IMG/VR virus record: IMGVR_UViG_3300048836_000117
Span: 1-39,210 of that record
DNA: 39,210 bases
DNA from: a virus
Strand: one strand, 5' to 3'
Below the pieces are notes generated by a model. The model did not search any database. It was given only the letters and a program-made list of their open reading frames with translations, and was not told where the DNA came from. The position numbers and the translations under genes are program-made. Shown in pieces: positions 24,519 to 36,768 of the stretch; positions within the stretch are counted from its first letter, which is position 1, and each line of letters starts with the position of its first letter.

Positions 24519-25937
24519 ATGGGAATGTTTGATAATTTACTGAGCTACTTGGCAGATGCGATCACAAAAAAGATGCTTGAGCAAAAAAAAGTGGTTGACA
24601 GGTCCGTGAACTATCGGGATGGATTGCAGAAACGGCAACTAAAGGTTGACCATGGGCAGCATGATGACAATATCGTTATCAACTTTGCAAACCTGATTGT
24701 CGAGCGGTCAATCAGCATGGTTTTGGGATATGGCATTGAGTTTGATTTACCAGTGGATAGCGGAGCGCCAGAGCAATTATTTATTGACGCGCTGTTTGCG
24801 GCCAACAAGAAAGAGATACTACTCCACAAGGCGTTGTTGTTTGCAGCTGATGGTGGTACTGGTTATTTCAAGATACTACCTGGCGGGGTTATTGGTGAAG
24901 ATAACGAAGTTTACAATCGGATAGTTGTTCTCAATCCGGCTAACGTGATGGTAGATCACGAACCAGGCGACATGGAAGTAGTCACGAAGTACACCATTGA
25001 GTACTGGATAGGTGATGAAAACAAAAAAACAGGATACCGCGAAGTTACCGAATGGATGCCGCTTGTCAGTGGAAATGAAGAGGACGAGCAGACTATACTT
25101 GACGGTATTTGGCGGGTTACAAACTACGTCAATACGAACAGCAAGACTTGGGATGAAACAGGCTCTTACAAATGGGAGCATGACTTCGCTCCAATAGTCC
25201 ACTGGCAGAACTTACCCGACCCTTACCGCGTAGAAGGTAAACCTGACCTTCCACAAAACCTTATTGACGTAATGGATGACTACAATTACACCATGAGCAA
25301 CAAGAACAAGATCATTCGTTTCTACGCTCACCCTCGCGTGTATGGCGTGAACATTGAAGCGAAAGATAGCACAACCTGGGGACCGGATGACATGCCGATT
25401 TTCAACGGTTCAGGTAGCGACAGACCAGAAATAAACCAGCTTGAGCAGCTTGGCGATTTAGCGGCCGCCAATACTCATGCGCGTGATTTACGTCAGGCTA
25501 TGTTTGACATTTCGCGTACCGTTGACATTGATAGCATACAGGACAAACTTGGAAGCCTGACAAACTTTGGCTTACGTGTTCTTTACACTGATGCGCTCGC
25601 AAAGGCAAACGATAAGCGGCTGTTGTTTGGTGAAGCATTGCTTGAACTTGTTCGGCGTCTGCTTATCATAAACGGATTTACCAACACGGCGCCAGGTAAG
25701 ATTATTTGGACTGACACACTGCCAAAGAACGAAAAAGAAGAAGTTGATTTGATTACCGCTGAGGTTGGATTAGGGATCATAAGCAAGGAAACAGCCGCAA
25801 CAATTCGCGGGCATGACTTTGAAGCTGAGAAAGAAAAGATAGCGGACGAGCGAGCCAGCGACGCGCTGAATAACGATAATATCGGCGGTCTGCTGCTGAA
25901 TAACTTCATAGCTGGCAGGAATAACAATGCCGGATAA
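24519..25937 (+). CDS. Portal protein (SPP1 gp6-like)
   Basis: A 472-residue protein directly after TerL. It has YRDGLQKRQLKVDHGQHDDNIVINFANLIVERSISMVLG, PIVHWQNLPDPYRVEGKPDL and a helical DDYNYTMSNKNKIIRFYAHPRVYG region, all typical of SPP1 gp6-type portals. Portals form the dodecameric DNA channel at one capsid vertex. The end overlaps the head morphogenesis gene by 11 bases. Confidence 0.85.
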   Translation: MGMFDNLLSYLADAITKKMLEQKKVVDRSVNYRDGLQKRQLKVDHGQHDDNIVINFANLIVERSISMVLGYGIEFDLPVDSGAPEQLFIDALFAANKKEILLHKALLFAADGGTGYFKILPGGVIGEDNEVYNRIVVLNPANVMVDHEPGDMEVVTKYTIEYWIGDENKKTGYREVTEWMPLVSGNEEDEQTILDGIWRVTNYVNTNSKTWDETGSYKWEHDFAPIVHWQNLPDPYRVEGKPDLPQNLIDVMDDYNYTMSNKNKIIRFYAHPRVYGVNIEAKDSTTWGPDDMPIFNGSGSDRPEINQLEQLGDLAAANTHARDLRQAMFDISRTVDIDSIQDKLGSLTNFGLRVLYTDALAKANDKRLLFGEALLELVRRLLIINGFTNTAPGKIIWTDTLPKNEKEEVDLITAEVGLGIISKETAATIRGHDFEAEKEKIADERASDALNNDNIGGLLLNNFIAGRNNNAG

Positions 25938-28104
25938 TACCGAGTTATTGCGCACGATTGAGCGCATACAGAAAGAACTAAAAGACTTGCAAGATAAGAA
26001 GATGGTCGATCTTGCAACAACTTTCAGGGCGGGTACAGAACGCTTTGACTCGGATATACAGCTAATCAGCGAAAAGATAGCTGGTGGCATAAGCAAAGCA
26101 GAGTTGCGCAAACTACCGGAGTATAAGCGCCTGGTGCTTGAAACAAACAGAGCATTGAACGATTACGCAGGTTATCTGTCGTATGACATCCGCAAAGAAG
26201 CAAGCCAGTTTGTACAGTATGGCAACCGTGACGCCGAAACGCTTATGCGGTTATCGTCTGGTGATGTTGCGGCTATGTTCAGGCAGTTATCGCCTGAACA
26301 GCTTGCGGCGCTTGGAAATTATATCAACCCAGGGCGGCCGCTTTATAATCGCTTGCAGATGCTATCAGAAACAACCGTAAACGGTATCACTCAAACAATG
26401 TTTGACATGATAGCGGGCGGGTACAATCCAAAGCAGATTGCAAGAAACATTACCAATGCTTACGGTGTTGGATTGACTGACAGTATGCGAATGATGCGAA
26501 CGGCGCAAATATACTCTTACCGTGATGCAACAGCGGCAAACTATCAGGCTAATTCAGATGTAGTCAAAGGTTGGATCTGGACGGCAAAATTAGATAGCGC
26601 TACTTGCTTTCCAATGGGTACTTTAGTAAGAACACAAAATGGATATAAGCCAATAGAAGAAATAAAAACTGGCGATTTGGTTGTAACGCACACAGGAAAA
26701 TTGAAGCATGTAACGCAAACTATGAAAAAAGAATATTCTAGTGGCTTTGTTGAATTAGAAATACTTGGAAACAAAATAACTTCAACCTATGACCATCCGT
26801 ATTTAGTTGGGCGTAACGGATTATTTGATTGGATTTACGCTAAAGAAATCACTACTAATGACACAGTCGTGATCGATAAAGATTTTTTCTTTCAAAAAAG
26901 AAACCATATCTTTGGTAAATTCTCCATAAAAATTTGTATCTTCAATTCTATATACCGTATGTCCTTTAGACGTCATCCATCTATCTTTTCTGGCGTCACG
27001 TTCTTTGACGGATTTGCTACTGTGCCAGTAAACTCCGTCAACCTCTATAATGGCGCTTATAGAAGGCAAGAAAAAATCAACAGAGTATCTCCATCCTGGA
27101 AAACTATGTTCTTGAATGTGTTCAATACCAATGCTTTCGAGACACATCCTAACATTTTTTTCAGGCTCTGTCTCTCCAACGTATCTTCTGTAGCATCTTG
27201 GGCAACAAAATTTTTGTCTAGACAAAGCCGGAACTACTCTAAAATCTTTCCCGCACGTAAGACACTTGTTTATAACTGGCGGTCTTCTACATGTTTCAGA
27301 ACAGTAGCTTCTGTTTTCGGATCCATTAAAAACAATTCCGCATCTTTTGCAAGTTTTGTAAATGGAGTTTTTCGTCTTACAAGATTTACTACAAACATTG
27401 TACCTGTCTGCGTTGGACTTTGGAACAGTAAACGACTTGTTGCAAACAGGGCATATCTTAGAAACCTGTCTACTTTTAGCAGAACAATCTCTAGAACAAA
27501 AATCAGTAGGCCTTTTCCTTGGATAAAAAAATTCTTTTCCGCATGTTTTACAAACAGCAAAAATACGCTTGCTCTTTGTGGAGTTGTAACACTCTATAGA
27601 ACAAAATTTTCCATTTCCTCTTCTACTCCATGCTTCTGGAATTTCAAAGGATTTTCCACACTTGGAACACGTTTTTATAATCATAATAGTATTATATCAT
27701 CTTTCGCTAACCACGTCCAGAAAGAAGAAGTTTACAACATTGAGGTTGAGGACGATCATTCTTATATTGCAAACGGCGTTGTTGTTCATAACTGCATGAG
27801 TTGTGTTGCACAGCATGGAACGCTTTACAAGGTAGACGAACGGCTAAAGGATCATTTCAATGGGCGATGTGTACCCGTACCTCTAACAATCCTCAACCCA
27901 GAGCCTTTCATAAAAGAGGGAGCCGGTCAAGAATGGTTTGAGAAGCAACCCGAAAGCGTACAGCGTCAGATGATGGGCGAGGGACGGTATCAGGCTTGGA
28001 AAGACGGCAAATTCAAGTTTGGCCAGTTGTCTGCTGGAAGAGAAGACCCAGTGTATGGAATCATGCAACAAGAGAGGTCACTAAAAGATTTACTAAACAA
28101 GTAA
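25927..28104 (+). CDS. Head morphogenesis protein (SPP1 gp7 / Mu F type) interrupted by an intein
   Basis: A 725-codon ORF. Extein residues 1-226 and 623-725 join to a 329-residue protein. The conserved MuF-type segment reads WIWTAKLDSAT joined to CMSCVAQHGTLYKVDERL and HFNGRCVPVP, so the intein lies directly before the first Cys of the CxxC motif. MuF proteins are minor capsid components ejected or placed near the portal. Splicing uses Cys+1 (27793-27795) of the C-extein. Without splicing the CxxC motif would be split, so splicing is probably required for capsid assembly. HEG-D overlaps the 3' end by 12 bases. Confidence 0.85.
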   Translation: MPDNTELLRTIERIQKELKDLQDKKMVDLATTFRAGTERFDSDIQLISEKIAGGISKAELRKLPEYKRLVLETNRALNDYAGYLSYDIRKEASQFVQYGNRDAETLMRLSSGDVAAMFRQLSPEQLAALGNYINPGRPLYNRLQMLSETTVNGITQTMFDMIAGGYNPKQIARNITNAYGVGLTDSMRMMRTAQIYSYRDATAANYQANSDVVKGWIWTAKLDSATCFPMGTLVRTQNGYKPIEEIKTGDLVVTHTGKLKHVTQTMKKEYSSGFVELEILGNKITSTYDHPYLVGRNGLFDWIYAKEITTNDTVVIDKDFFFQKRNHIFGKFSIKICIFNSIYRMSFRRHPSIFSGVTFFDGFATVPVNSVNLYNGAYRRQEKINRVSPSWKTMFLNVFNTNAFETHPNIFFRLCLSNVSSVASWATKFLSRQSRNYSKIFPARKTLVYNWRSSTCFRTVASVFGSIKNNSASFASFVNGVFRLTRFTTNIVPVCVGLWNSKRLVANRAYLRNLSTFSRTISRTKISRPFPWIKKFFSACFTNSKNTLALCGVVTLYRTKFSISSSTPCFWNFKGFSTLGTRFYNHNSIISSFANHVQKEEVYNIEVEDDHSYIANGVVVHNCMSCVAQHGTLYKVDERLKDHFNGRCVPVPLTILNPEPFIKEGAGQEWFEKQPESVQRQMMGEGRYQAWKDGKFKFGQLSAGREDPVYGIMQQERSLKDLLNK
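26821..27684 (-). CDS. HEG-C: Vsr-like (EDxHD-type) homing endonuclease with zinc fingers
   Basis: A 287-residue protein encoded antisense within the intein. Five Cys-pair fingers begin at about residues 6, 45, 78, 112 and 141. A nuclease domain of about 173-250 follows: EPEKNVRMCLESIGIEHI, YSVDFFLP (Asp203), IIEVDGVYWHSS (Glu214, Asp216, His221) and ERDARKD. This matches the EDxHD Vsr-like homing endonucleases first noticed in genes fractured by split inteins. It has its own extended -10 six bases before its ATG. Its reading frame avoids TTA, CTA and TCA, which keeps the intein open. Confidence 0.8.
   Translation of the reverse strand: MIIKTCSKCGKSFEIPEAWSRRGNGKFCSIECYNSTKSKRIFAVCKTCGKEFFYPRKRPTDFCSRDCSAKSRQVSKICPVCNKSFTVPKSNADRYNVCSKSCKTKNSIYKTCKRCGIVFNGSENRSYCSETCRRPPVINKCLTCGKDFRVVPALSRQKFCCPRCYRRYVGETEPEKNVRMCLESIGIEHIQEHSFPGWRYSVDFFLPSISAIIEVDGVYWHSSKSVKERDARKDRWMTSKGHTVYRIEDTNFYGEFTKDMVSFLKEKIFIDHDCVISSDFFSVNPIK
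27691..27699 (-). promoter_or_regulatory. Leaderless promoter of HEG-C, inside the intein
   Basis: On the minus strand TGATATAAT, then ACTATT, then ATG at 27684. It lies in intein coding sequence just upstream of the block F codons. Confidence 0.7.
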
Positions 28105-28764
28105 ATTTGTTCTATTCCACTCTACTAATAATTTTGATCCCTTTGAACCATTGCAAAAAGAACAAGACAAAACCAAATTATATTTATCGTTCGCTCCTCC
28201 TCTTGAAATAGGAATAATATGGTCTACGTCATACACATTGTTTAGTTTCTTTTTGCAATAAAAGCATTTACCTTTTTGCGCTTTATATAAGTAAGATATA
28301 TCTTGTACGGTATGTGATCCATGTGATTCTTTTAGTAATGCGCGCCTATTTCTTCCCCATGTATTTATCATATCCTTATGTGTTTTCCTGAATTTTTTAC
28401 CATACTCTCGTCTTGATGCTTTCGCTTGATCTGCGTGTTCATAATACCACTTAGATGCCCTATCCTTATATGATTGAGTATGCGTATCGTAGTCTTTCTT
28501 TTTATAAATCTTTACTTTTTCTTTGTTTCTTTCTTTCCAGTTTTTATTATAACCATTTACTCGTTCTTTATTATTTTTTGCCCATTCTTTTTGATGTTCT
28601 GCGTGCATTTTTTTTACTTCTTCTCTTTGTCTGTATTCTTTATTGTATAAAGATATACAATGCAAGCACGTAGCAGACAATCCGCACGTAACCCTTTTTT
28701 CTGGTCTGAAATATTCAGAAGTAGCAGGAAAATCTTTTTTACAAGTTTTACATGTTTTATTCAT
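28093..28764 (-). CDS. HEG-D: HNH endonuclease after the intein gene
   Basis: A 223-residue protein. The N-terminal Cys pair (CKTCKKDF...FRPEKR, CGLSATCLHC) is followed by a very basic helical region (KEWAKNNKERVNGYNKNWKERN). A canonical HNH domain ends the protein: CFYCKKKLNNVYDVDHIIPISRGG, NLVLSCSFCNGSKGSK. Cys pairs, the Asp-His-Ile-Ile-Pro core and the final Asn/Cys/Lys set are intact. It converges on the head morphogenesis gene, overlapping by 12 bases. Its own codon-aligned sense frame is not open throughout, unlike HEG-A and HEG-C. The Leu/Val C-terminus is intact. Confidence 0.85.
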   Translation of the reverse strand: MNKTCKTCKKDFPATSEYFRPEKRVTCGLSATCLHCISLYNKEYRQREEVKKMHAEHQKEWAKNNKERVNGYNKNWKERNKEKVKIYKKKDYDTHTQSYKDRASKWYYEHADQAKASRREYGKKFRKTHKDMINTWGRNRRALLKESHGSHTVQDISYLYKAQKGKCFYCKKKLNNVYDVDHIIPISRGGANDKYNLVLSCSFCNGSKGSKLLVEWNRTNLLV

Positions 28765-29892: not shown

Positions 29893-30765
29893 ATGACAAT
29901 GAATACTTATGCAGCCGTATCGGCGATAGCACAAGATGTCCAAGATGATGCGATCTTTATCGTTCGCGAACTTGGATTGATGCAAAGGCTGGTAACTGTA
30001 CTGACCGACTTACGCGGAATGAATCCCCGCGTTGGTTATAAGTACAATTCTGGAACCGCAAAAGACATCGGTGAGTCTGATGACCTGACTAGTGATGCCT
30101 TCACTCCATCGGCAGATCAAACCCTGACGCCTTCAGAAATCGGAGAACAGTTTCTGGTTTTGGATAGCCGCGTTGAGTCTGAACTTCCTGAGAGCTGGAT
30201 GAATGATGCCTCACAGGAATTAGGGCTTGCTGCTCTTGACAAAGTAGAATCTGACTTAGTCAGTGAAATGGCAAACCTGACTGGTGGAACTATCGGAACC
30301 GCTGGCTCGGCGATTACCTGGGGATACTTAGCGGCTGCAATCGCTGTTGCTCGTGGTGTCAACAAAAACGCCGCAAAACCGCTGAACGCTGTTATCCACG
30401 GTTATCAATGGGCAGTATTAGCAAAAAGCGCTTCAATCGCTGGTGCTACTGTTGCCGCAACCGCTCCAGGTTTTCAGGAACAAATCACCCGAACCGGTGG
30501 ATCTGGTGTTTTGGTTGCTACTTTCATGGGCGTGCCGATCTACCAGACGTTTGCTGCTGTTGATAGCGGTATTGACTTTACTGGTGGCGTTTTCCCGCGT
30601 GAATCAATCGCGATTGACTGGCGGCGCATGATCCGCATTGAAGCTGAACGGGATGCTTCTCGGCGTGGTACTGAACTGAACATGAGCGGCGTTTATGCTC
30701 ATGGTGTGTGGCGGCCTGATCGTGGCGTGAAAATGATTTTTGACGCTGCAACCCCAACAAACTAG
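29893..30765 (+). CDS. Major capsid protein
   Basis: A 290-residue protein after the scaffold gene. IAQDVQDDAIFIVREL..., ALDKVESDLVSEM and the C-terminal FTGGVFPRESIAIDWRRMIRIEAERDASRRGTELNMSGVYAHGVWRPDRG fit HK97-fold capsid proteins (P domain and A domain strands), of usual length without a delta domain since scaffold is separate. GGAG is 7 bases upstream. It would form the icosahedral shell. Confidence 0.8.
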   Translation: MTMNTYAAVSAIAQDVQDDAIFIVRELGLMQRLVTVLTDLRGMNPRVGYKYNSGTAKDIGESDDLTSDAFTPSADQTLTPSEIGEQFLVLDSRVESELPESWMNDASQELGLAALDKVESDLVSEMANLTGGTIGTAGSAITWGYLAAAIAVARGVNKNAAKPLNAVIHGYQWAVLAKSASIAGATVAATAPGFQEQITRTGGSGVLVATFMGVPIYQTFAAVDSGIDFTGGVFPRESIAIDWRRMIRIEAERDASRRGTELNMSGVYAHGVWRPDRGVKMIFDAATPTN

Positions 30766-30775
30766 GAGGCTTATA

Positions 30776-31180
30776 ATGTCACAAGATACCCGTATTTTGA
30801 CCGTGTTGATCCCCGATCCCGGTGCTGATAACAAGCAGATTTTCTTGATGAAAGCGCCGTCTGATTTGAATGGTGGTGGGTGCCGTATCGTTGCCGCGTC
30901 TGCTATCAATGGCGCCGCAACTGGCGCAGGTACTTCTTTCAGCTTTGGGCTATTGAAGTATTCAGGCGCTGGCACTCCTGCCGTAAACGGGACTATTGCT
31001 CCCGCTATCGGTGGAACCGCTGCAACCATTTGGGCGGCTGGCGTTCCTCAAGCGTTTGTTTTGGACGATGACTATACCTTCCTTGATGCCGGTGAATATC
31101 TGGTGTTGGACTACCAGGAAGATAATGCAAGCGCTCCGACAAACTGCACAGTTACCATCCATTACCTGCTCGGCAAGTAA
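30776..31180 (+). CDS. Capsid decoration-type protein
   Basis: The start at 30776 has AGGAGG upstream. The 134-residue product is beta-rich and Gly/Ala-rich (VIPDPGADNKQIFLMKAP..., GAATGAGTSFSFGLLKYSG, EYLVLDYQEDNASAPTNCTVTIHYLLG). Location directly after the major capsid gene and predicted small beta fold suggest a head decoration or cement protein; not proven. Confidence 0.5.
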   Translation: MSQDTRILTVLIPDPGADNKQIFLMKAPSDLNGGGCRIVAASAINGAATGAGTSFSFGLLKYSGAGTPAVNGTIAPAIGGTAATIWAAGVPQAFVLDDDYTFLDAGEYLVLDYQEDNASAPTNCTVTIHYLLGK

Positions 31181-31204
31181 TCTAAAGTAGCGCGTAGTAA
31201 TATG

Positions 31205-31242
31205 ATATACTTGGTATGTAAAGTACCAAGTATATTTTATTT
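31205..31242 (+). terminator. 12-bp hairpin terminator after the capsid genes
   Basis: ATATACTTGGTA and TACCAAGTATAT form a perfect 12-bp stem with a 7-base loop, then TTTATTT. A TGATATACT extended -10 overlaps the first arm, so reading may end and restart here. Confidence 0.7.
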
Positions 31243-31253
31243 ATGGAGGTAAA

Positions 31254-33191
31254 ATGAAAATTCAATGGATGTCAAACAGCCCTTGGGCTTGTACTGGTTA
31301 CGGTGTGCAAACAAAAATATTCACTCCGCGTATCAAAGCGTTAGGGCATGACGTGAACATATTCGCTTTTTATGGACTTGAGGGCGGCGTGCTGAAATGG
31401 CACGGCATGAACGTTTTCCCGCGTCATGCTCATATTTATGGGCAGGACATTGTAAGCAGTCATGCAGAAAGCACGAACAGACAGGTTATTATCAGTCTGA
31501 TGGATGCCTGGGTGTTCCAATCGTCACAGATCAAGAACAAAAATATCAAGTGGATACCTTGGTTTCCAATTGACAGCGAACCAATACCTGGACCGGTAGG
31601 CGATTCGGTACGCACGGCATACAAGCGGATTGTGTTCAGCAAGTTTGGCGAACGAATGACGAATGATGCCGGTATGGATTGCTATTATGTACCGCATGGC
31701 GTTGAAACAAATATCTACAAACCGCTTGACATGGCAGAATGCAGGGAAAAACAGAAGCTACCCAAAGACGCCTTTATTATCGGCATGGTTGCGGCTAACA
31801 AAGGCAACCCACCGCGTAAGGCGTTTTATGCTCATTTACAGGCGTTCGCAGAGTTCAAGCGGCGTCACCCGGATGCTTTTCTTTATCTGCATACTAACAG
31901 CGGGGAACATGGAGAATACCAATCAGTAAACCTTCCGGCGTTCGCTGCTTTCCTTGGGTTGGAACGTGACAAGGATTACGCAATTGCAAACAATTACCGC
32001 ATGGCAGTAGGCGGTTACAATGATCAGGACATGGTCGAGTTGTACAATTCGTTTGACGTGCATCTTCTGGTAAGTATGGGCGAGGGATTTGGAGTACCGA
32101 TCCTTGAGGCTCAATCGTGCGGCTGTCCTGTTATCGTTGGGGATTGGACGGCAATGAGCGAGTTGTGCTTTAGCGGTTATATGGTAGACAAGAAAGATGC
32201 TGACCCGTGGTTTACTGATTTGGGAGCGTACCAATGGAACCCACGCGCTTATGCGATTGTAGACAAACTCGAAGCAATGTACAAGCGCAAAGGAAATCAG
32301 AATTGGCGCAGGCGTGCGCGTGAAGGCGCATTGGCTTATGACGCTGACCTTGTCACAGAGAAATACTGGAAACCTGTACTGGAAGAAATCGAAGCCAACC
32401 TTCCGGAAGCAACAAAAAACATGGTTGCAAAATTCCACACTCATTCATGGTCAAAAACAGGGCTATGGAATAAAGACGGTACGATCAGCGTGCCTTGCGA
32501 AGATCCAAAGTGCATGGATGAATTGATTTTCAATCTGACAACCAACGCGCAGAATATCGTAGTAAAAGGGTTCAATCTTTCACCAAACGGAATTGATCTT
32601 GACATTGAAGATGACCCGACCGGATCGGTTGCTAAAATAGTTTGTCGTGAGATTGAGAGAGATTACGATCTTGATCTTGACTTCAAAGATGGTGACATAG
32701 TGATTGACATCGGCGCGCAGGTTGGGATTGTGTCATGCTATCTTGGCAAGAAATATCCCAACATAAAAATACTGGCATTTGAGCCGGTCAAGGGAAACTA
32801 CGACAGACTTATGCGCAACATAAAGGAAAACGCAATAAACAATGTTGCTACTTTTGACATGGCGATAACTGGTGACGGTCGAGATATTTGTATGAGTGGC
32901 AATGTTCACGAAAACAGCGGATCGTGTAATATCTACGGAGATACCGGAGAAAATGTAAAGAGTCTTACTCTAAAAAATATATTTGATACATTAGATATTG
33001 ACCGCGTAAAACTTCTCAAGATAGATTGTGAAGGCGCTGAATATGAAATCCTTGAAGCCTTCCCTGAACTGCTCGACCGAATTGACGCTATCCGTGGTGA
33101 AATTCACCCAATGGAAGGCAAAAGCCAATCTGACCTGATGCTGTATATCAAAGACCATATCAAAGACGTAAAGATGACGGTGCTGACATGA
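31254..33191 (+). CDS. Glycosyltransferase (GT4-like) fused to an FkbM-type methyltransferase
   Basis: A 645-residue two-domain enzyme. Residues 1-390 form a GT-B glycosyltransferase: N-terminal WMSNSPWACTGYG, YYVPHGVETNIYKP, then MGEGFGVPILEAQSCGCPVI, the GT4 donor-binding signature. About 435-645 form an FkbM-family methyltransferase: DGDIVIDIGAQVGIVSCYLG (SAM site), FEPVKGNYDRL and LLKIDCEGAEYEILE. A sugar transfer followed by O-methylation is the likely chemistry. It opens a four-gene cassette inside the head genes. GGAGG is 5 bases upstream. Confidence 0.8.
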   Translation: MKIQWMSNSPWACTGYGVQTKIFTPRIKALGHDVNIFAFYGLEGGVLKWHGMNVFPRHAHIYGQDIVSSHAESTNRQVIISLMDAWVFQSSQIKNKNIKWIPWFPIDSEPIPGPVGDSVRTAYKRIVFSKFGERMTNDAGMDCYYVPHGVETNIYKPLDMAECREKQKLPKDAFIIGMVAANKGNPPRKAFYAHLQAFAEFKRRHPDAFLYLHTNSGEHGEYQSVNLPAFAAFLGLERDKDYAIANNYRMAVGGYNDQDMVELYNSFDVHLLVSMGEGFGVPILEAQSCGCPVIVGDWTAMSELCFSGYMVDKKDADPWFTDLGAYQWNPRAYAIVDKLEAMYKRKGNQNWRRRAREGALAYDADLVTEKYWKPVLEEIEANLPEATKNMVAKFHTHSWSKTGLWNKDGTISVPCEDPKCMDELIFNLTTNAQNIVVKGFNLSPNGIDLDIEDDPTGSVAKIVCREIERDYDLDLDFKDGDIVIDIGAQVGIVSCYLGKKYPNIKILAFEPVKGNYDRLMRNIKENAINNVATFDMAITGDGRDICMSGNVHENSGSCNIYGDTGENVKSLTLKNIFDTLDIDRVKLLKIDCEGAEYEILEAFPELLDRIDAIRGEIHPMEGKSQSDLMLYIKDHIKDVKMTVLT

Positions 33192-33808
33192 TTAGTATTA
33201 TCACACCTTGGCACAACTGTTCGGAGTTATGCGATATGTATGAGCGCTCTCACGGGGGCGCTCAAATCATCACGATTGACAATGCAAGCGAACCAGAACA
33301 CGCAAAGAAAATCCGTGAAATGACTGAACGAATGGGCGGCGTGTATATTCGCAACCGTAAAAATAACCTGTTTGCGAAGGCTAACAATCAAGGGTATAGG
33401 CTGGCATCCAATAACGTTGTTATGTTTCTCAACAGCGATACAATGGGCGTCGCTGGTTGGGTTTACAGCGTAGAGGATGATGTACATGATGGAGCATTGT
33501 ACGGCGTGAGTGCCGGTACTCGCTATGTGGCAGGTAAGTCTATCCCATATCTTGAGGGCTGGTGCATGGCCGCTACTCGCAACACATGGGATAAGGTCGG
33601 GCTGTGGAATGAAAAACTACCAGGCATGTACTACGAAGATAATATCTTGTGCATTGAAGCGCTGAAAAAGAAGGTCAATCTTTTGGTTTGTCAATGGCAA
33701 GTAGAACACATGAACAACTACACAACCAACAGGACAAAAGGAACGCTAGACAAGGTAAGCGAGAACAAAGCAGAGTTTGAAAGGATGGTGAAAGAATGGA
33801 AAAAGTAA
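33188..33808 (+). CDS. GT2-type glycosyltransferase
   Basis: A 206-residue GT-A enzyme: SIITPWHNCSEL, ITIDNASEPE, NNLFAKANNQGYRLASNNVVMFLNSDT (donor-binding loop with an Asn-Ser-Asp metal motif in place of DxD) and GMYYEDNILCIEALKK (catalytic base region). It has the minimal GT2 core without a membrane segment. ATGA overlap with the upstream enzyme points to a shared pathway. Confidence 0.75.
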   Translation: MISIITPWHNCSELCDMYERSHGGAQIITIDNASEPEHAKKIREMTERMGGVYIRNRKNNLFAKANNQGYRLASNNVVMFLNSDTMGVAGWVYSVEDDVHDGALYGVSAGTRYVAGKSIPYLEGWCMAATRNTWDKVGLWNEKLPGMYYEDNILCIEALKKKVNLLVCQWQVEHMNNYTTNRTKGTLDKVSENKAEFERMVKEWKK

Positions 33809-34350
33809 ATCCGTTTTTGACGATCTACACACCGACATACAAACGACCAAAGGCGCTTGAGGTGTGCAAACAGTCTATTGAAGCGCAAACCTACGATGAA
33901 CAAATTGAATGGATACTTATTGCAGACACGGTAGGCATTGGAATACCAGGCGTTTATGCTGATGTAGTCAACCATGTTGACAAGGTACACGGCGATTACG
34001 TTCTATTCCTGTCTGACGATGATTACATTTCAGATGCAAAATTTGTGCAAAAATTGCATGATTTTGTCAAAAACAACGATAATCCTGCTGTCGTAGTGTA
34101 CAGCATTGAAAAATCAGGACGTATCCTGCCGACATGGATGAATAGTGAACCACAACTAGGACACATTGATTTATCCAATTTCGTTGTACGATCTGACGTG
34201 TGGAAAGAACACGCCGACAAATGGGGTAGGCGTTACGAAGGCGATTATGATTTTATCCGCGCTCTCTGGGATATGCGTTATCGTTTCACATGGATGCATG
34301 GTGATGTCTGTATAAAAGCACAACGAATAAGTAGAGGATTACCGGAATGA
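33796..34350 (+). CDS. Short GT2-like glycosyltransferase
   Basis: A 184-residue protein: FLTIYTPTYKRPKALEVCKQSIEAQTY, then DYVLFLSDDDYISDAKFVQKL with a DDD metal motif, and GRRYEGDYDFIRALW. Fits a compact GT-A enzyme. The central strand (EWILIADTVG) retains the nucleotide-site pattern. It overlaps its neighbours by 13 and 4 bases in the same operon. Confidence 0.7.
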   Translation: MEKVNPFLTIYTPTYKRPKALEVCKQSIEAQTYDEQIEWILIADTVGIGIPGVYADVVNHVDKVHGDYVLFLSDDDYISDAKFVQKLHDFVKNNDNPAVVVYSIEKSGRILPTWMNSEPQLGHIDLSNFVVRSDVWKEHADKWGRRYEGDYDFIRALWDMRYRFTWMHGDVCIKAQRISRGLPE

Positions 34351-35402
34351 ACTATATTGACCCTACAAACAAACTACTGAAACACATTGACAGAATAGCG
34401 GAAATACAGGCTGGCGGTCATCCGGCACCTGTCAATGTAGAGATTGACTTATCAAACCGCTGTAATCTTGGTTGCGCTGGTTGCCACTTTTCACACACGC
34501 ACACGCGCGGGCATTTTGGTAATGTTGCCAACGTGAGCACGGTTGGCGATCTGATGGATATATCATTGATCAGAAAAATAATTGTTGATCTTTGGCACAA
34601 CGGCGTACGTTCTATCACATGGACAGGCGGCGGGGAGCCAACACTTCATCCGCGGTTTGATGAAGTGATTGAATCGACACACGCAATTGGATTGGCTCAA
34701 GGCATTTATACCAACGGGACACAGATTACACCTAAACGCGCTGAACTGATGAAGAAAAGCATGGATTGGGTTTATGTTTCTTTGGATCGTGCAGACCGTG
34801 AAACATACAAAGAGTACAAAAAAGCTGACGCGTTTGAAAAGGCACTCGCAGGAATTGAAAACCTTGTCAATGCTGACGGTAACGCTACAATCGGAGTAGG
34901 ATTTTTGTTATCGCGTCAATCGTTACCGTATGCGCGGGATATGCTCGATTTAGGTCAGGATTTAGGCGTAGATTATATCCAATTCAGGCCAGAGATCAGC
35001 TTTGACTTTGACAATCAGTCAAGCGGTCCAGAAGATAACGCATGGATAAAAGCGGCTATCATGTGGCTTGACGGTGTGAAAGGTGAGCGCAAAGTAAACG
35101 TTGACGTTAGCCGGTTTGAAATGTACCGCAATTGGAAAGGACATGGATATAAAACATGTCACTGGTCACAGATGCAAACCGTAATTACGCCGAACGGTAA
35201 AGTTTGGACGTGCGTCAATCGGCGCGGATTTGAAGGCGATTGTATCGGGGATCTGACACAAGAAACATTTGCCGAAGTCTGGCAGAAAAGTTGTGCTAAA
35301 ATAGTAGATAGTAAGTGCCGTGTGATGTGCAGGGGACACATACCAAACCTTACATTGGATCACATGATGAAAGAACGAACAGGACATGATAATTTTGTAT
35401 AA
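34347..35402 (+). CDS. Radical SAM enzyme with SPASM-like C-terminus
   Basis: A 351-residue protein. LSNRCNLGCAGCHF gives the CxxxCxxC iron-sulphur motif (Cys39, 43, 46). TWTGGGEPTLHPRF is the GGE SAM-binding motif, and IYTNGTQI and VSLDRADRETY are typical strands. The C-terminal part (CHWSQMQTVITPNGKVWTC, GDCIGDL, CRVMCRG) has extra Cys as in SPASM or twitch domains binding additional clusters. Such enzymes modify peptides, proteins or sugars. With the upstream glycosyltransferases it forms a cassette likely to modify a virion or host surface component; the substrate is unknown. Confidence 0.85.
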   Translation: MNYIDPTNKLLKHIDRIAEIQAGGHPAPVNVEIDLSNRCNLGCAGCHFSHTHTRGHFGNVANVSTVGDLMDISLIRKIIVDLWHNGVRSITWTGGGEPTLHPRFDEVIESTHAIGLAQGIYTNGTQITPKRAELMKKSMDWVYVSLDRADRETYKEYKKADAFEKALAGIENLVNADGNATIGVGFLLSRQSLPYARDMLDLGQDLGVDYIQFRPEISFDFDNQSSGPEDNAWIKAAIMWLDGVKGERKVNVDVSRFEMYRNWKGHGYKTCHWSQMQTVITPNGKVWTCVNRRGFEGDCIGDLTQETFAEVWQKSCAKIVDSKCRVMCRGHIPNLTLDHMMKERTGHDNFV

Positions 35403-35411
35403 GGCGGTAAT

Positions 35412-36011
35412 ATGACAGCAAGAGTGACAATGGCTGATTTGATAACAAAAGTGCGAAGCATGACCAGCGCCGGGACTGCTGATTATACGATTGCTGGTAC
35501 GTTATACTGGACGGATGACCAGATTGAAGATCACCTGGACGTTACTCAAAAAAATGTAAACTACCAGCCGATGCACGCAGTTCCAACTTACGGAATAGGC
35601 GGAGCTGTTACTTACACAGAATATCAAACAGGTATGAGAAATTGGGAGAAGTCGCCAATTGTGCAGGACGAAGGCGGTACAACGCTTACAGCAGGGACTT
35701 CAACAGGCAATTATGCGTTTGACGATGTAACCGGCGTAGTAGATTTTGTGGGTGACACAGAAGGAAAGACGCGCTACATTACGGGTTATGTTTACAATCC
35801 TGAACAGGCGGCAAGCGCAATCTGGGCTGAGAAGGCGTCACAGACGGCGGCATTATTTGACTTCTCAACGGATAACCACTCTATCAAACGCTCACAGATG
35901 CGGGAAAGCTATCTTGAGATGGCACGCTTTTACAAGAACAAGGCAGGTGTTGGCATGGTAAGACTGGTCAGATCAGACGATGTTAGCGAGCGCAATGGAG
36001 CGGAACGATGA
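35412..36011 (+). CDS. Head-tail connector (adaptor-type) protein
   Basis: A 199-residue protein, first after the modification cassette. An N-terminal helix (MADLITKVRSMTSAGTADYTI) with WTDDQIEDHLDVTQKNV is typical of connector proteins of the gp6/gp15 type. A beta insertion and a C-terminal helical tail (KRSQMRESYLEMARFYKNKAG) follow. Position before stopper and tail completion genes supports the role. Confidence 0.6.
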   Translation: MTARVTMADLITKVRSMTSAGTADYTIAGTLYWTDDQIEDHLDVTQKNVNYQPMHAVPTYGIGGAVTYTEYQTGMRNWEKSPIVQDEGGTTLTAGTSTGNYAFDDVTGVVDFVGDTEGKTRYITGYVYNPEQAASAIWAEKASQTAALFDFSTDNHSIKRSQMRESYLEMARFYKNKAGVGMVRLVRSDDVSERNGAER

Positions 36012-36355
36012 CATTATCCAACGCTGAACTTGAGATCATGCGGGCTGATATCGAAGCGCTGTTGCCTGATACGTGTAGTATTATATCTGTTACGCTGACA
36101 AGTAACGGAGCCGGAGGGTTTACCGAGTCGTTTGGTACGGCGTCAGCATCATGCAGAAAAGACACAAAGACGGTTCTCGCAGTTGATAGCGGCGGTGTAG
36201 TCAATACGACTTACGCTGAGATGATAACGCTCCCATGGGATACAACGATTGCGAACACGTCAAGAATTGTACACGGCGGAAACACTTATAAGGTTATCGG
36301 TGTAACGGATGGCTCTTGGTTGTGCATTAAGCGGGTAGAGGTACGCAAGATATGA
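36008..36355 (+). CDS. Head closure / stopper-type protein
   Basis: A 115-residue protein with MRADIEALLPDTCSIISVTLTSNGAGG, AEMITLPWDTTI and VHGGNTYKVIGVTDGSWLCIKRVEV. A small beta barrel of this pattern between connector and gp10-like proteins is typical of the head-closure (gp16/stopper) class. ATGA overlaps both neighbours. Confidence 0.6.
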   Translation: MTLSNAELEIMRADIEALLPDTCSIISVTLTSNGAGGFTESFGTASASCRKDTKTVLAVDSGGVVNTTYAEMITLPWDTTIANTSRIVHGGNTYKVIGVTDGSWLCIKRVEVRKI

Positions 36356-36768
36356 CCGATGGAATGGTGTTAGACACCAAAGAAGTTGACCGAATAATGC
36401 GAGTGCTAAAGATCAACGAAAAGCAACTCGGCAAGGTTATTGCGTTTGAAGCCGAAGCAGAAATGAAGAAACGCGCAGCGGTTGACACATCGGCAATGAG
36501 AAATTCTATCTATGTCGTGACGCAGGATGAGGACGGTTATGGAATGGCAAGCGGCGAAGCAAGAGGCAACAACGACAAAGTAGAAACGTCACCACATCCA
36601 AAGCCTACCGGTGACACGCTGGCTAATGTTGGACCGTCAGTGAACTATGCAGAGTTTGTCGAGTTTGGAACGTCAAAGATGGCTGCGCAACCTTTTGTAG
36701 TTCCTGGTGCTGAAACAGTGTTCAACAAATTCAATAATGGCGAGTTCTGGAATGGGTTGGTAAAATGA
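36352..36768 (+). CDS. HK97 gp10-like tail completion protein
   Basis: A 138-residue protein with FEAEAEMKKRAAVDTSAMRNSIYVVTQD and NVGPSVNYAEFVEFGTSKMAAQPFVVPG. The 'VxTGxLRxSI ... YxxxxEFGT ... QPFxxPA' pattern is that of the HK97 gp10 family that joins tail to head. ATGA overlaps on both sides. Confidence 0.8.
   Translation: MTDGMVLDTKEVDRIMRVLKINEKQLGKVIAFEAEAEMKKRAAVDTSAMRNSIYVVTQDEDGYGMASGEARGNNDKVETSPHPKPTGDTLANVGPSVNYAEFVEFGTSKMAAQPFVVPGAETVFNKFNNGEFWNGLVK

Follow-up and report, generated by a model that had tools for sequence, protein, structure and literature searches.

Within the 39,210-nucleotide (nt) stretch of viral DNA analyzed here (IMG/VR virus record IMGVR_UViG_3300048836_000117, positions 1 to 39,210, referred to as the window in the following), four overlapping genes encoding a GT4 glycosyltransferase (GT) fused to an FkbM-type methyltransferase, two GT2 glycosyltransferases (GT2a and GT2b) and a radical SAM enzyme are located between capsid-side genes and the head-tail connector gene. 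Judged from gene content, comparative genomics and structural models, this cassette probably represents a virion-glycosylation module that builds a glycan on a capsid surface protein, with tailoring by the radical SAM enzyme. By sequence comparison, the GT4 gene can be counted among the core genes of the virion module, based on its fixed place, its co-divergence with the major capsid protein (MCP) resembling that of the portal protein, and its invariant EX7E residues. The original prediction made for this DNA had suggested a modification of the virion itself, and this reading gained strong, albeit indirect, comparative support from GT4 synteny in 70 of 70 loci, from radical SAM relatives residing among virion genes and from a radical SAM fold similar to those of sugar enzymes.

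IMG/VR was scanned with a profile of two MCPs, originating from the window and from Microcystis phage Mae-JY09, and the loci obtained were thus not selected for the presence of GT genes. In total, 73 related loci were recovered; in three of these, the contig breaks off no more than 600 nt from the MCP gene. In each of the 70 testable loci, representing 52 lineages at 95% MCP identity, a GT4 gene of the same family directly follows the MCP gene or a small companion gene. The latter is missing in two lineages (loci L029/L030 and L055), in which GT4 is kept directly after the MCP gene. The whole interval from GT4 to the connector gene was available for 29 lineages, comprises 0.6–6.7 kb and always contains at least one additional gene. 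Furthermore, GT4 distances correlated with MCP distances (r = 0.64, a value reached in 0 of 500 permutations), and corresponding correlations were 0.63 for the portal protein, 0.74 for the connector and 0.67 for the major tail protein. The glutamates of the EX7E motif, E277 and E285, are invariant in 101 of 101 GT4 copies. The neighborhood search suggested along with the original prediction placed GT4 directly after the capsid gene or its small companion in all testable loci, and the slot of the window was found again in loci L083 and L084, which were obtained with a radical SAM profile.

Microcystis phage Mae-JY09 is the closest cultured relative and features the same gene order, with identities of 47% for the MCP, 58% for the small protein and 45% for GT4. 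Downstream of GT4, this phage encodes two proteins, one GT2-like and one resembling a sugar-nucleotide epimerase, which replace the GT2/GT2/radical SAM cargo, and then the connector. Productive IMG/VR searches were those with the MCP, radical SAM and GT4 profiles only; scans of this database that used the radical SAM enzyme or the GT4-FkbM protein as single queries, as well as a profile scan with the small capsid-side protein, gave no matches.

Open reading frame (ORF) positions and curated domain scores bore out the four-gene cassette described earlier between the capsid-side gene and the head-tail connectors. All four ORFs are encoded on the + strand in one overlapping run (overlaps of 4, 13 and 4 nt), with protein lengths of 645 (31254–33191), 206 (33188–33808), 184 (33796–34350) and 351 amino acids (34347–35402). 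The following features were assigned:

31254–32423, + strand: GT4 glycosyltransferase domain, the lineage-wide core gene (PF13692, 41.9 bits; phrog_2170, E value 4e-39)
32700–33107, + strand: FkbM-type methyltransferase domain, C-terminal part of the 645-amino-acid GT4 protein (PF05050, 47.9 bits; TIGR01444, 90.8 bits)
33188–33808, + strand: GT2 glycosyltransferase a, GT2a (PF00535, 30.1 bits)
33796–34350, + strand: GT2 glycosyltransferase b, GT2b, companion of the radical SAM enzyme (PF00535, 27.1 bits)
34347–35402, + strand: radical SAM enzyme with a truncated SPASM (twitch-like) C-terminus (PF04055, 76.5 bits; PF13186, 24.6 bits)

Curated cut-offs are 23.3 bits for GT2 (PF00535), 29.5 bits for Radical_SAM and 21.5 bits for SPASM, and the TIGR01444 score of the FkbM domain exceeds its cut-off of 37.7 bits. 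Relatives of GT2a occupy the same place in many related loci; a PDB sequence search found no relative of this protein. A DNA-level search of cultured phages returned no match to the window.

Applying a two-sequence radical SAM profile, 37 viral loci were obtained, including 22 loci (L083–L104) encoding enzymes that are 45–72% identical to that of the window. Loci L083 and L084 copy the gene order of the window, namely MCP, GT4, another GT, GT2b, radical SAM and connector; in L083, GT2b and the radical SAM enzyme are 59% and 72% identical to their window counterparts, and the other GT is different. Within the head-neck cluster, two slots were observed, one reaching from the capsid side to the connector and the other from head completion to gp10, the latter being used in L090, L093, L095, L096, L104 and the truncated L117. 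Moreover, radical SAM genes are located upstream of the portal, protease and MCP genes in L098, L099 and L101, and near tape-measure genes in L102 and L103. Altogether, they reside among head, neck or tail genes in 21 of the 22 close viral relatives, the exception being L091, which features no recognised virion gene. Screening of 84,980 prokaryote genomes revealed a sole match exceeding 30% identity across most of the protein length, located on a 3.9-kb contig of a Chloroflexi metagenome-assembled genome, where a phage head protein gene follows the radical SAM gene. As judged from these homologs, the radical SAM family of the window is nearly restricted to phages, because the only close match in prokaryote genomes itself adjoins a head gene of a phage. 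A cassette distant from structural genes, named at the outset as an outcome that would contradict virion modification, was looked for and not found, since the 21 viral relatives and the genome match adjoin virion genes. More distant relatives (26–31% identity) belong to sugar-gene clusters in large phages or come from bacteria and archaea.

In an alignment of 29 sequences, the radical SAM cysteines C39, C43 and C46 (CX3CX2C, 34461–34484) and the GGGEP motif are conserved, as are auxiliary cysteines within 35157–35330 (C271-x12-G-x4-C289 and C324-x3-C328). Cysteines for two auxiliary clusters, as in a full SPASM domain, are not present, although PF13186 reaches its cut-off. The C-terminus fits a truncated, twitch-like domain with a predicted single auxiliary cluster, and the SPASM-like end proposed originally is upheld by the profile score (24.6 versus 21.5 bits), albeit as a truncated domain and not as a full SPASM. 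The AlphaFold2 model (pLDDT 91.8) showed its best PDB fold matches with DesII (Z 24.9) and BlsE (Z 24.0), with sequence identities of 14–16% only, followed by the maturases SkfB (Z 23.5) and SuiB (Z 22.3) of ribosomally synthesized and post-translationally modified peptides (RiPPs); anSME and ChlB are also close, and the best PDB sequence match is TigE. DesII acts on a nucleotide sugar and BlsE on a sugar nucleoside. The model favours a sugar as substrate, because these two enzymes are the top fold matches. Of the targets considered in the original prediction, the structural check of the radical SAM enzyme points to a sugar used for the modification over direct alteration of a protein.

Genes between GT4 and the connector vary among the relatives. 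They encode further GTs (GT2, GT34, Anp1-like and CAP59-like), an SDR epimerase, UDP-galactopyranose mutase, PglD/hexapeptide acyltransferase, formyltransferases, several methyltransferases, and radical SAM as well as B12-binding radical SAM proteins. Furthermore, GT4-GT2-FkbM fusion proteins are encoded in L172, L176 and L178. By its annotation, this cargo is the content of a putative glycan pathway with variable last steps. Roughly half of the close relatives encode, beside the radical SAM cassette, a B12-binding radical SAM protein or a relative thereof (e.g., L038:3159-4427 with PF02310 and PF04055, L070:8308-9570 and L078:12544-13794), and its sequence assignment suggests C-methylation chemistry. 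In L011:9605-13370 (also in L010, L014, L034 and L074), the head cluster cassette contains a sugar-type ABC importer consisting of permease and binding protein, with the ATPase seen in L034; such cassettes also encode a GH42-like protein and a 246-amino-acid class I tRNA-synthetase-like protein.

Regarding the acceptor of the predicted glycan, two proteins encoded upstream of the cassette were considered:

29893–30765, + strand: major capsid protein (MCP) with HK97 fold, the best candidate acceptor (Pfam/PHROG matches, AlphaFold2 model)
30776–31180, + strand: small conserved capsid-side protein, a putative decoration protein and rival acceptor (position and conservation)

The AlphaFold2 model of the window MCP (pLDDT 84) matches HK97-fold capsids, and the MCP of mycobacteriophage Che8 (8e16), which ends in NKTGS, is among the best structural matches (Z 16.6; 19% identity, the highest among the matches listed). 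The C-terminal tail of the window MCP comprises residues 285–290, AATPTN (30745–30762), and the MCPs of its relatives in the lineage terminate in ...DATAPTS or a comparable sequence. Within the last four residues, P-[ST] occurs in 59 of 70 non-redundant MCPs and Ser/Thr in all 70, accounting for 50% of these residues versus a background of 15%; six other virion proteins of the lineage that were examined showed no C-terminal Ser/Thr enrichment. Moreover, five homologous MCPs from phages devoid of GT4, namely Pelagibacter phages HTVC026P, 111P, 112P and 202P and phage DSL-LC06, stop before the Ser/Thr tail. O-glycosylation at the MCP C-terminus is regarded as the leading, yet unproven, acceptor site, and the small capsid-side protein represents the main alternative. 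The latter had been designated a capsid decoration gene product, which agrees with its capsid-side position and conservation; the 134-amino-acid protein has no Pfam/PHROG match, and this role is deduced.

The following mechanism is proposed. Late in infection, GT4 and the short GT2 enzymes would use nucleotide sugars of the host to assemble a short glycan on a surface protein of the capsid; O-linkage to the Ser/Thr tail at the MCP C-terminus would be most likely. The FkbM domain may O-methylate this glycan, and the radical SAM enzyme may remodel the sugar, e.g., by deamination/dehydration, oxidation, epimerization or decarboxylation, with either the donor or the glycan as target. GT4 would represent the fixed core, and the other genes would serve as exchangeable tailoring cargo altering the capsid display. 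The analysis itself established the gene content, intact catalytic motifs, synteny and co-divergence with capsid genes across the lineage, turnover of the cargo and a predicted radical SAM fold; from these, we infer virion glycosylation as such, its acceptor, the sequence of the steps and the chemistry of the radical enzyme. A broader reading is put forward tentatively and may well not hold in full: a large lineage of uncultured siphophages would possess a dedicated capsid-glycan locus, no less fixed than the capsid gene, place a glycan on the Pro-Thr/Ser C-terminus of every subunit, use a phage-confined radical SAM family, often together with a B12 radical SAM protein, for making sugars not known from cells, and diversify its surface by cargo exchange in the manner of bacterial O-antigen loci.

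Several observations weigh against virion glycosylation as proposed here. The glycan is a prediction from gene content. A fold shared with DesII does not establish a sugar substrate, and SkfB and SuiB follow closely in Z. The contrast in MCP tails is confounded by descent, since the GT4-less phages represent two lineages only and four of the five phages are near relatives; these lineages are moreover devoid of the small capsid-side gene, and Ser is still present at the ends of their MCPs (DSSIQ). Mae-JY09 encodes GT4, but its MCP ends in DASLPA. A PTS end as a universal mark of cassette-bearing phages was rejected, as it is absent from the unrelated MCPs of podovirus MW202801 and of L101. Finally, profile comparisons (hidden Markov models, hhalign) of the GT4 and GT2 proteins of the window with Che8 gp108–110 revealed no homolog of the essential GT gp110 (Corndog gp38).

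Phage GTs are usually interpreted as remodeling the surface polysaccharide of the host, e.g., for superinfection exclusion or receptor change, and this was proposed for pelagimyophages possessing cassettes of GT and radical SAM genes (PMC7029224). For the window, the place in the head cluster would then serve late expression only, and the distant radical SAM relatives in sugar-gene clusters of large phages are compatible with such a role. However, late expression leaves little time for exclusion, a lipid-carrier priming enzyme, flippase or polymerase is not present, and the GT4 position is fixed and co-diverges with virion genes, while close relatives were not found away from the latter. The four cassette proteins also lack a clear transmembrane segment (maximum KD19 1.60), which separates them from Gtr-type serotype conversion as well, and their domain scans gave no GtrA/GtrC-like family match. 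Host-surface remodeling is accordingly considered unlikely. The small capsid-side protein, or the tail tube, in place of the MCP is an acceptor of lesser but appreciable probability: its gene is located immediately upstream in nearly all loci, is absent from the GT4-less outgroup and is conserved in Mae-JY09 (58%), with conserved Gly-Thr turns. Nevertheless, its terminus is not enriched in Ser/Thr, and GT4 follows the MCP gene directly in L029/L030 and L055.

The radical SAM enzyme could also act on a virion protein in the manner of a RiPP maturase, forming a thioether or C–C bond or causing epimerization, with the GTs being separate. SPASM-like enzymes are often peptide-acting, and the matches to SkfB, SuiB, anSME, ChlB and TigE fit this role; the top two fold matches, in contrast, act on sugars, nothing resembling a precursor peptide was recognised in the cassette, and the radical SAM gene travels with GT2b and, in the 45–72% identical relatives, with GT4/GT2 genes. 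Little probability is assigned to this explanation. Glycosylation of a hypermodified base of the phage DNA appears extremely unlikely, although DNA-modifying phage GTs exist (cited in PMC12619734). No base-priming genes (e.g., for hydroxymethylation) were found among the scanned window proteins, and the DNA enzymes of the window are ordinary (methyltransferases, DnaB, exonuclease). To our knowledge, neither FkbM nor SPASM-like radical SAM proteins are parts of DNA-glycosylation pathways. Equally, quick cargo turnover between relatives might indicate unlinked moron genes that landed in the head cluster by chance. This notion is already contradicted by synteny, namely the same GT4 with intact catalytic residues in all testable loci, and also by overlapping genes, glycan-related cargo and gene fusions, and it is highly improbable.

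The virion genes surrounding the cassette encode terminase, portal, head morphogenesis, scaffold and MCP proteins upstream and head completion, tail completion and major tail proteins downstream. Features directly adjoining the cassette are as follows:

31204–31236, + strand: 14-pair hairpin followed by a T-rich tail, separating the capsid-side genes from the cassette (folding)
35412–36011, + strand: head-tail connector, first gene after the cassette (homolog at the equivalent place in relatives)
36008–36355, + strand: head completion (PF05521 just under cut-off; PF04883 and phrog_5 for 36008–36768)
36352–36768, + strand: HK97 gp10-like tail completion (PF04883 and phrog_5, listed for 36008–36768)

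The hairpin had been described as a strong terminator. It is unusually stable (z about −5 versus mononucleotide shuffles), but terminator-like matches across the region number 10 versus 9.1 expected in shuffles. Within the head cluster, the head-morphogenesis protein (725 amino acids, 25927–28104) features intein-like inserts at residues ~224–315 and 593–626, which match profiles common to ribonucleotide reductase, helicase and terminase proteins, and an HNH/endonuclease VII-like gene is encoded antisense on the − strand (28093–28764). Among the phages devoid of GT4, Pelagibacter phages at loci L198:14864-15271, L199:15217-15630 and L200:15060-15446 encode an annotated toxin-activating lysine acyltransferase directly before a large tail protein, which suggests acylation of a tail protein. 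DSL-LC06, without a GT4 locus, features genes annotated as encoding a sialyltransferase (or related GT) and a glucosamine-phosphate N-acetyltransferase, situated close to or within the tail genes (L197:1-454 and L197:16416-16901).

In relatives, the spacer between the small gene and GT4 is unusually structured. The Rfam int-alpA RNA (RF02996) was matched in L026 (40.6 bits) and L036 (38.6 bits) above the gathering threshold of 35.8 bits; this threshold was not reached in the window, where the simple 14-pair hairpin is found instead. In an alignment of 24 sequences, 19 pairs were defined, among them a loop-to-3′ pseudoknot, and 93% of cells are paired. For 18 of the 19 pairs, both partners are exchanged in some sequence, and the covariation score is 0.65 versus 0.175 in shuffles. 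The model deduced from this alignment matched in 40 of 100 sources, 39 of them, including the cultured Mae-JY09, at the spot before GT4. A part of this RNA in setting enzyme levels relative to the capsid is possible. Representative positions are:

L038:1296-1387, L026:1506-1597, L003:7905-8004 and about 35 other loci: structured RNA between the small gene (or MCP gene) and GT4

Capsid glycosylation of phages has so far been documented mainly in a few mycobacteriophages. New here is the GT4 as an apparent core virion-module gene of a broad lineage, accompanied by exchangeable tailoring enzymes including a radical SAM enzyme, and the cultured relative Mae-JY09 makes the glycosylation idea testable. 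If true, phages would carry out sugar chemistry on their own surfaces, with relevance to the stability and adsorption of virions as well as to predation and immune recognition, and a new group of radical SAM enzymes that probably modify sugars would be available for characterization.

Within the searched literature, which contained few subscription papers, no description of a GT4-led locus or of a radical SAM enzyme within such a locus was found. GT, radical SAM and methylation genes also occur together in the Undecim Cluster of Wolbachia prophage WO (WD0613 is a GT-radical SAM fusion), but this cluster belongs to the eukaryotic association module instead of the head genes and is thought to affect host-symbiont interaction. 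Podovirus MW202801 (Manatee Spring) encodes a radical SAM enzyme (30% identical), GT, PhyH, methyltransferase, NodB-like protein and GT in the interval from the MCP gene to a virion gene further along (L002:11980-16643). It is an unrelated phage with other cargo and gene order and without GT4 in the lead, apparently an independent case of radical SAM and GT genes after an MCP gene. Pontimonas phage phiPsal1 and Synechococcus phage S-CBS4 feature a relative of GT4 in the vicinity of capsid or portal genes together with a methyltransferase, and phiPsal1 also a GT2 in a cluster ending at the neck, whereas radical SAM genes are missing from both clusters.

The functionally closest systems are those of mycobacteriophages, for which glycosylated virions (Che8, Corndog, Myrna) are described in PMC12363180 and PMC11256854, and glycans on capsid and tail-tube C-termini in PMC12619734. 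The modification was measured there and is predicted for the window. In Corndog, an O-methyltransferase, two GTs and a GlcNAc transferase are encoded between portal and protease, and capsid modification was proposed by the authors (PMC4351075). Phage GTs plus a methyltransferase, as in Che8 gp108–110, Corndog gp35–38 and Myrna, are likewise linked to virion genes in the window, and the Corndog genes also lie inside the structural operon, whereas those of Che8 are located at the right genome end. The Che8 and Corndog clusters lack a radical SAM gene (the latter according to the annotation in PMC4351075). Che8 shares the HK97-fold capsid and a short Ser-containing capsid C-terminus with the window, and its gp109 resembles GT2a (hhalign 93%) as a generic GT2. 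By analogy, the window system would work like mycobacteriophage virion glycosylation, as a counterpart and not as a homologous member, because the essential gp110 GT has no equivalent in the window.

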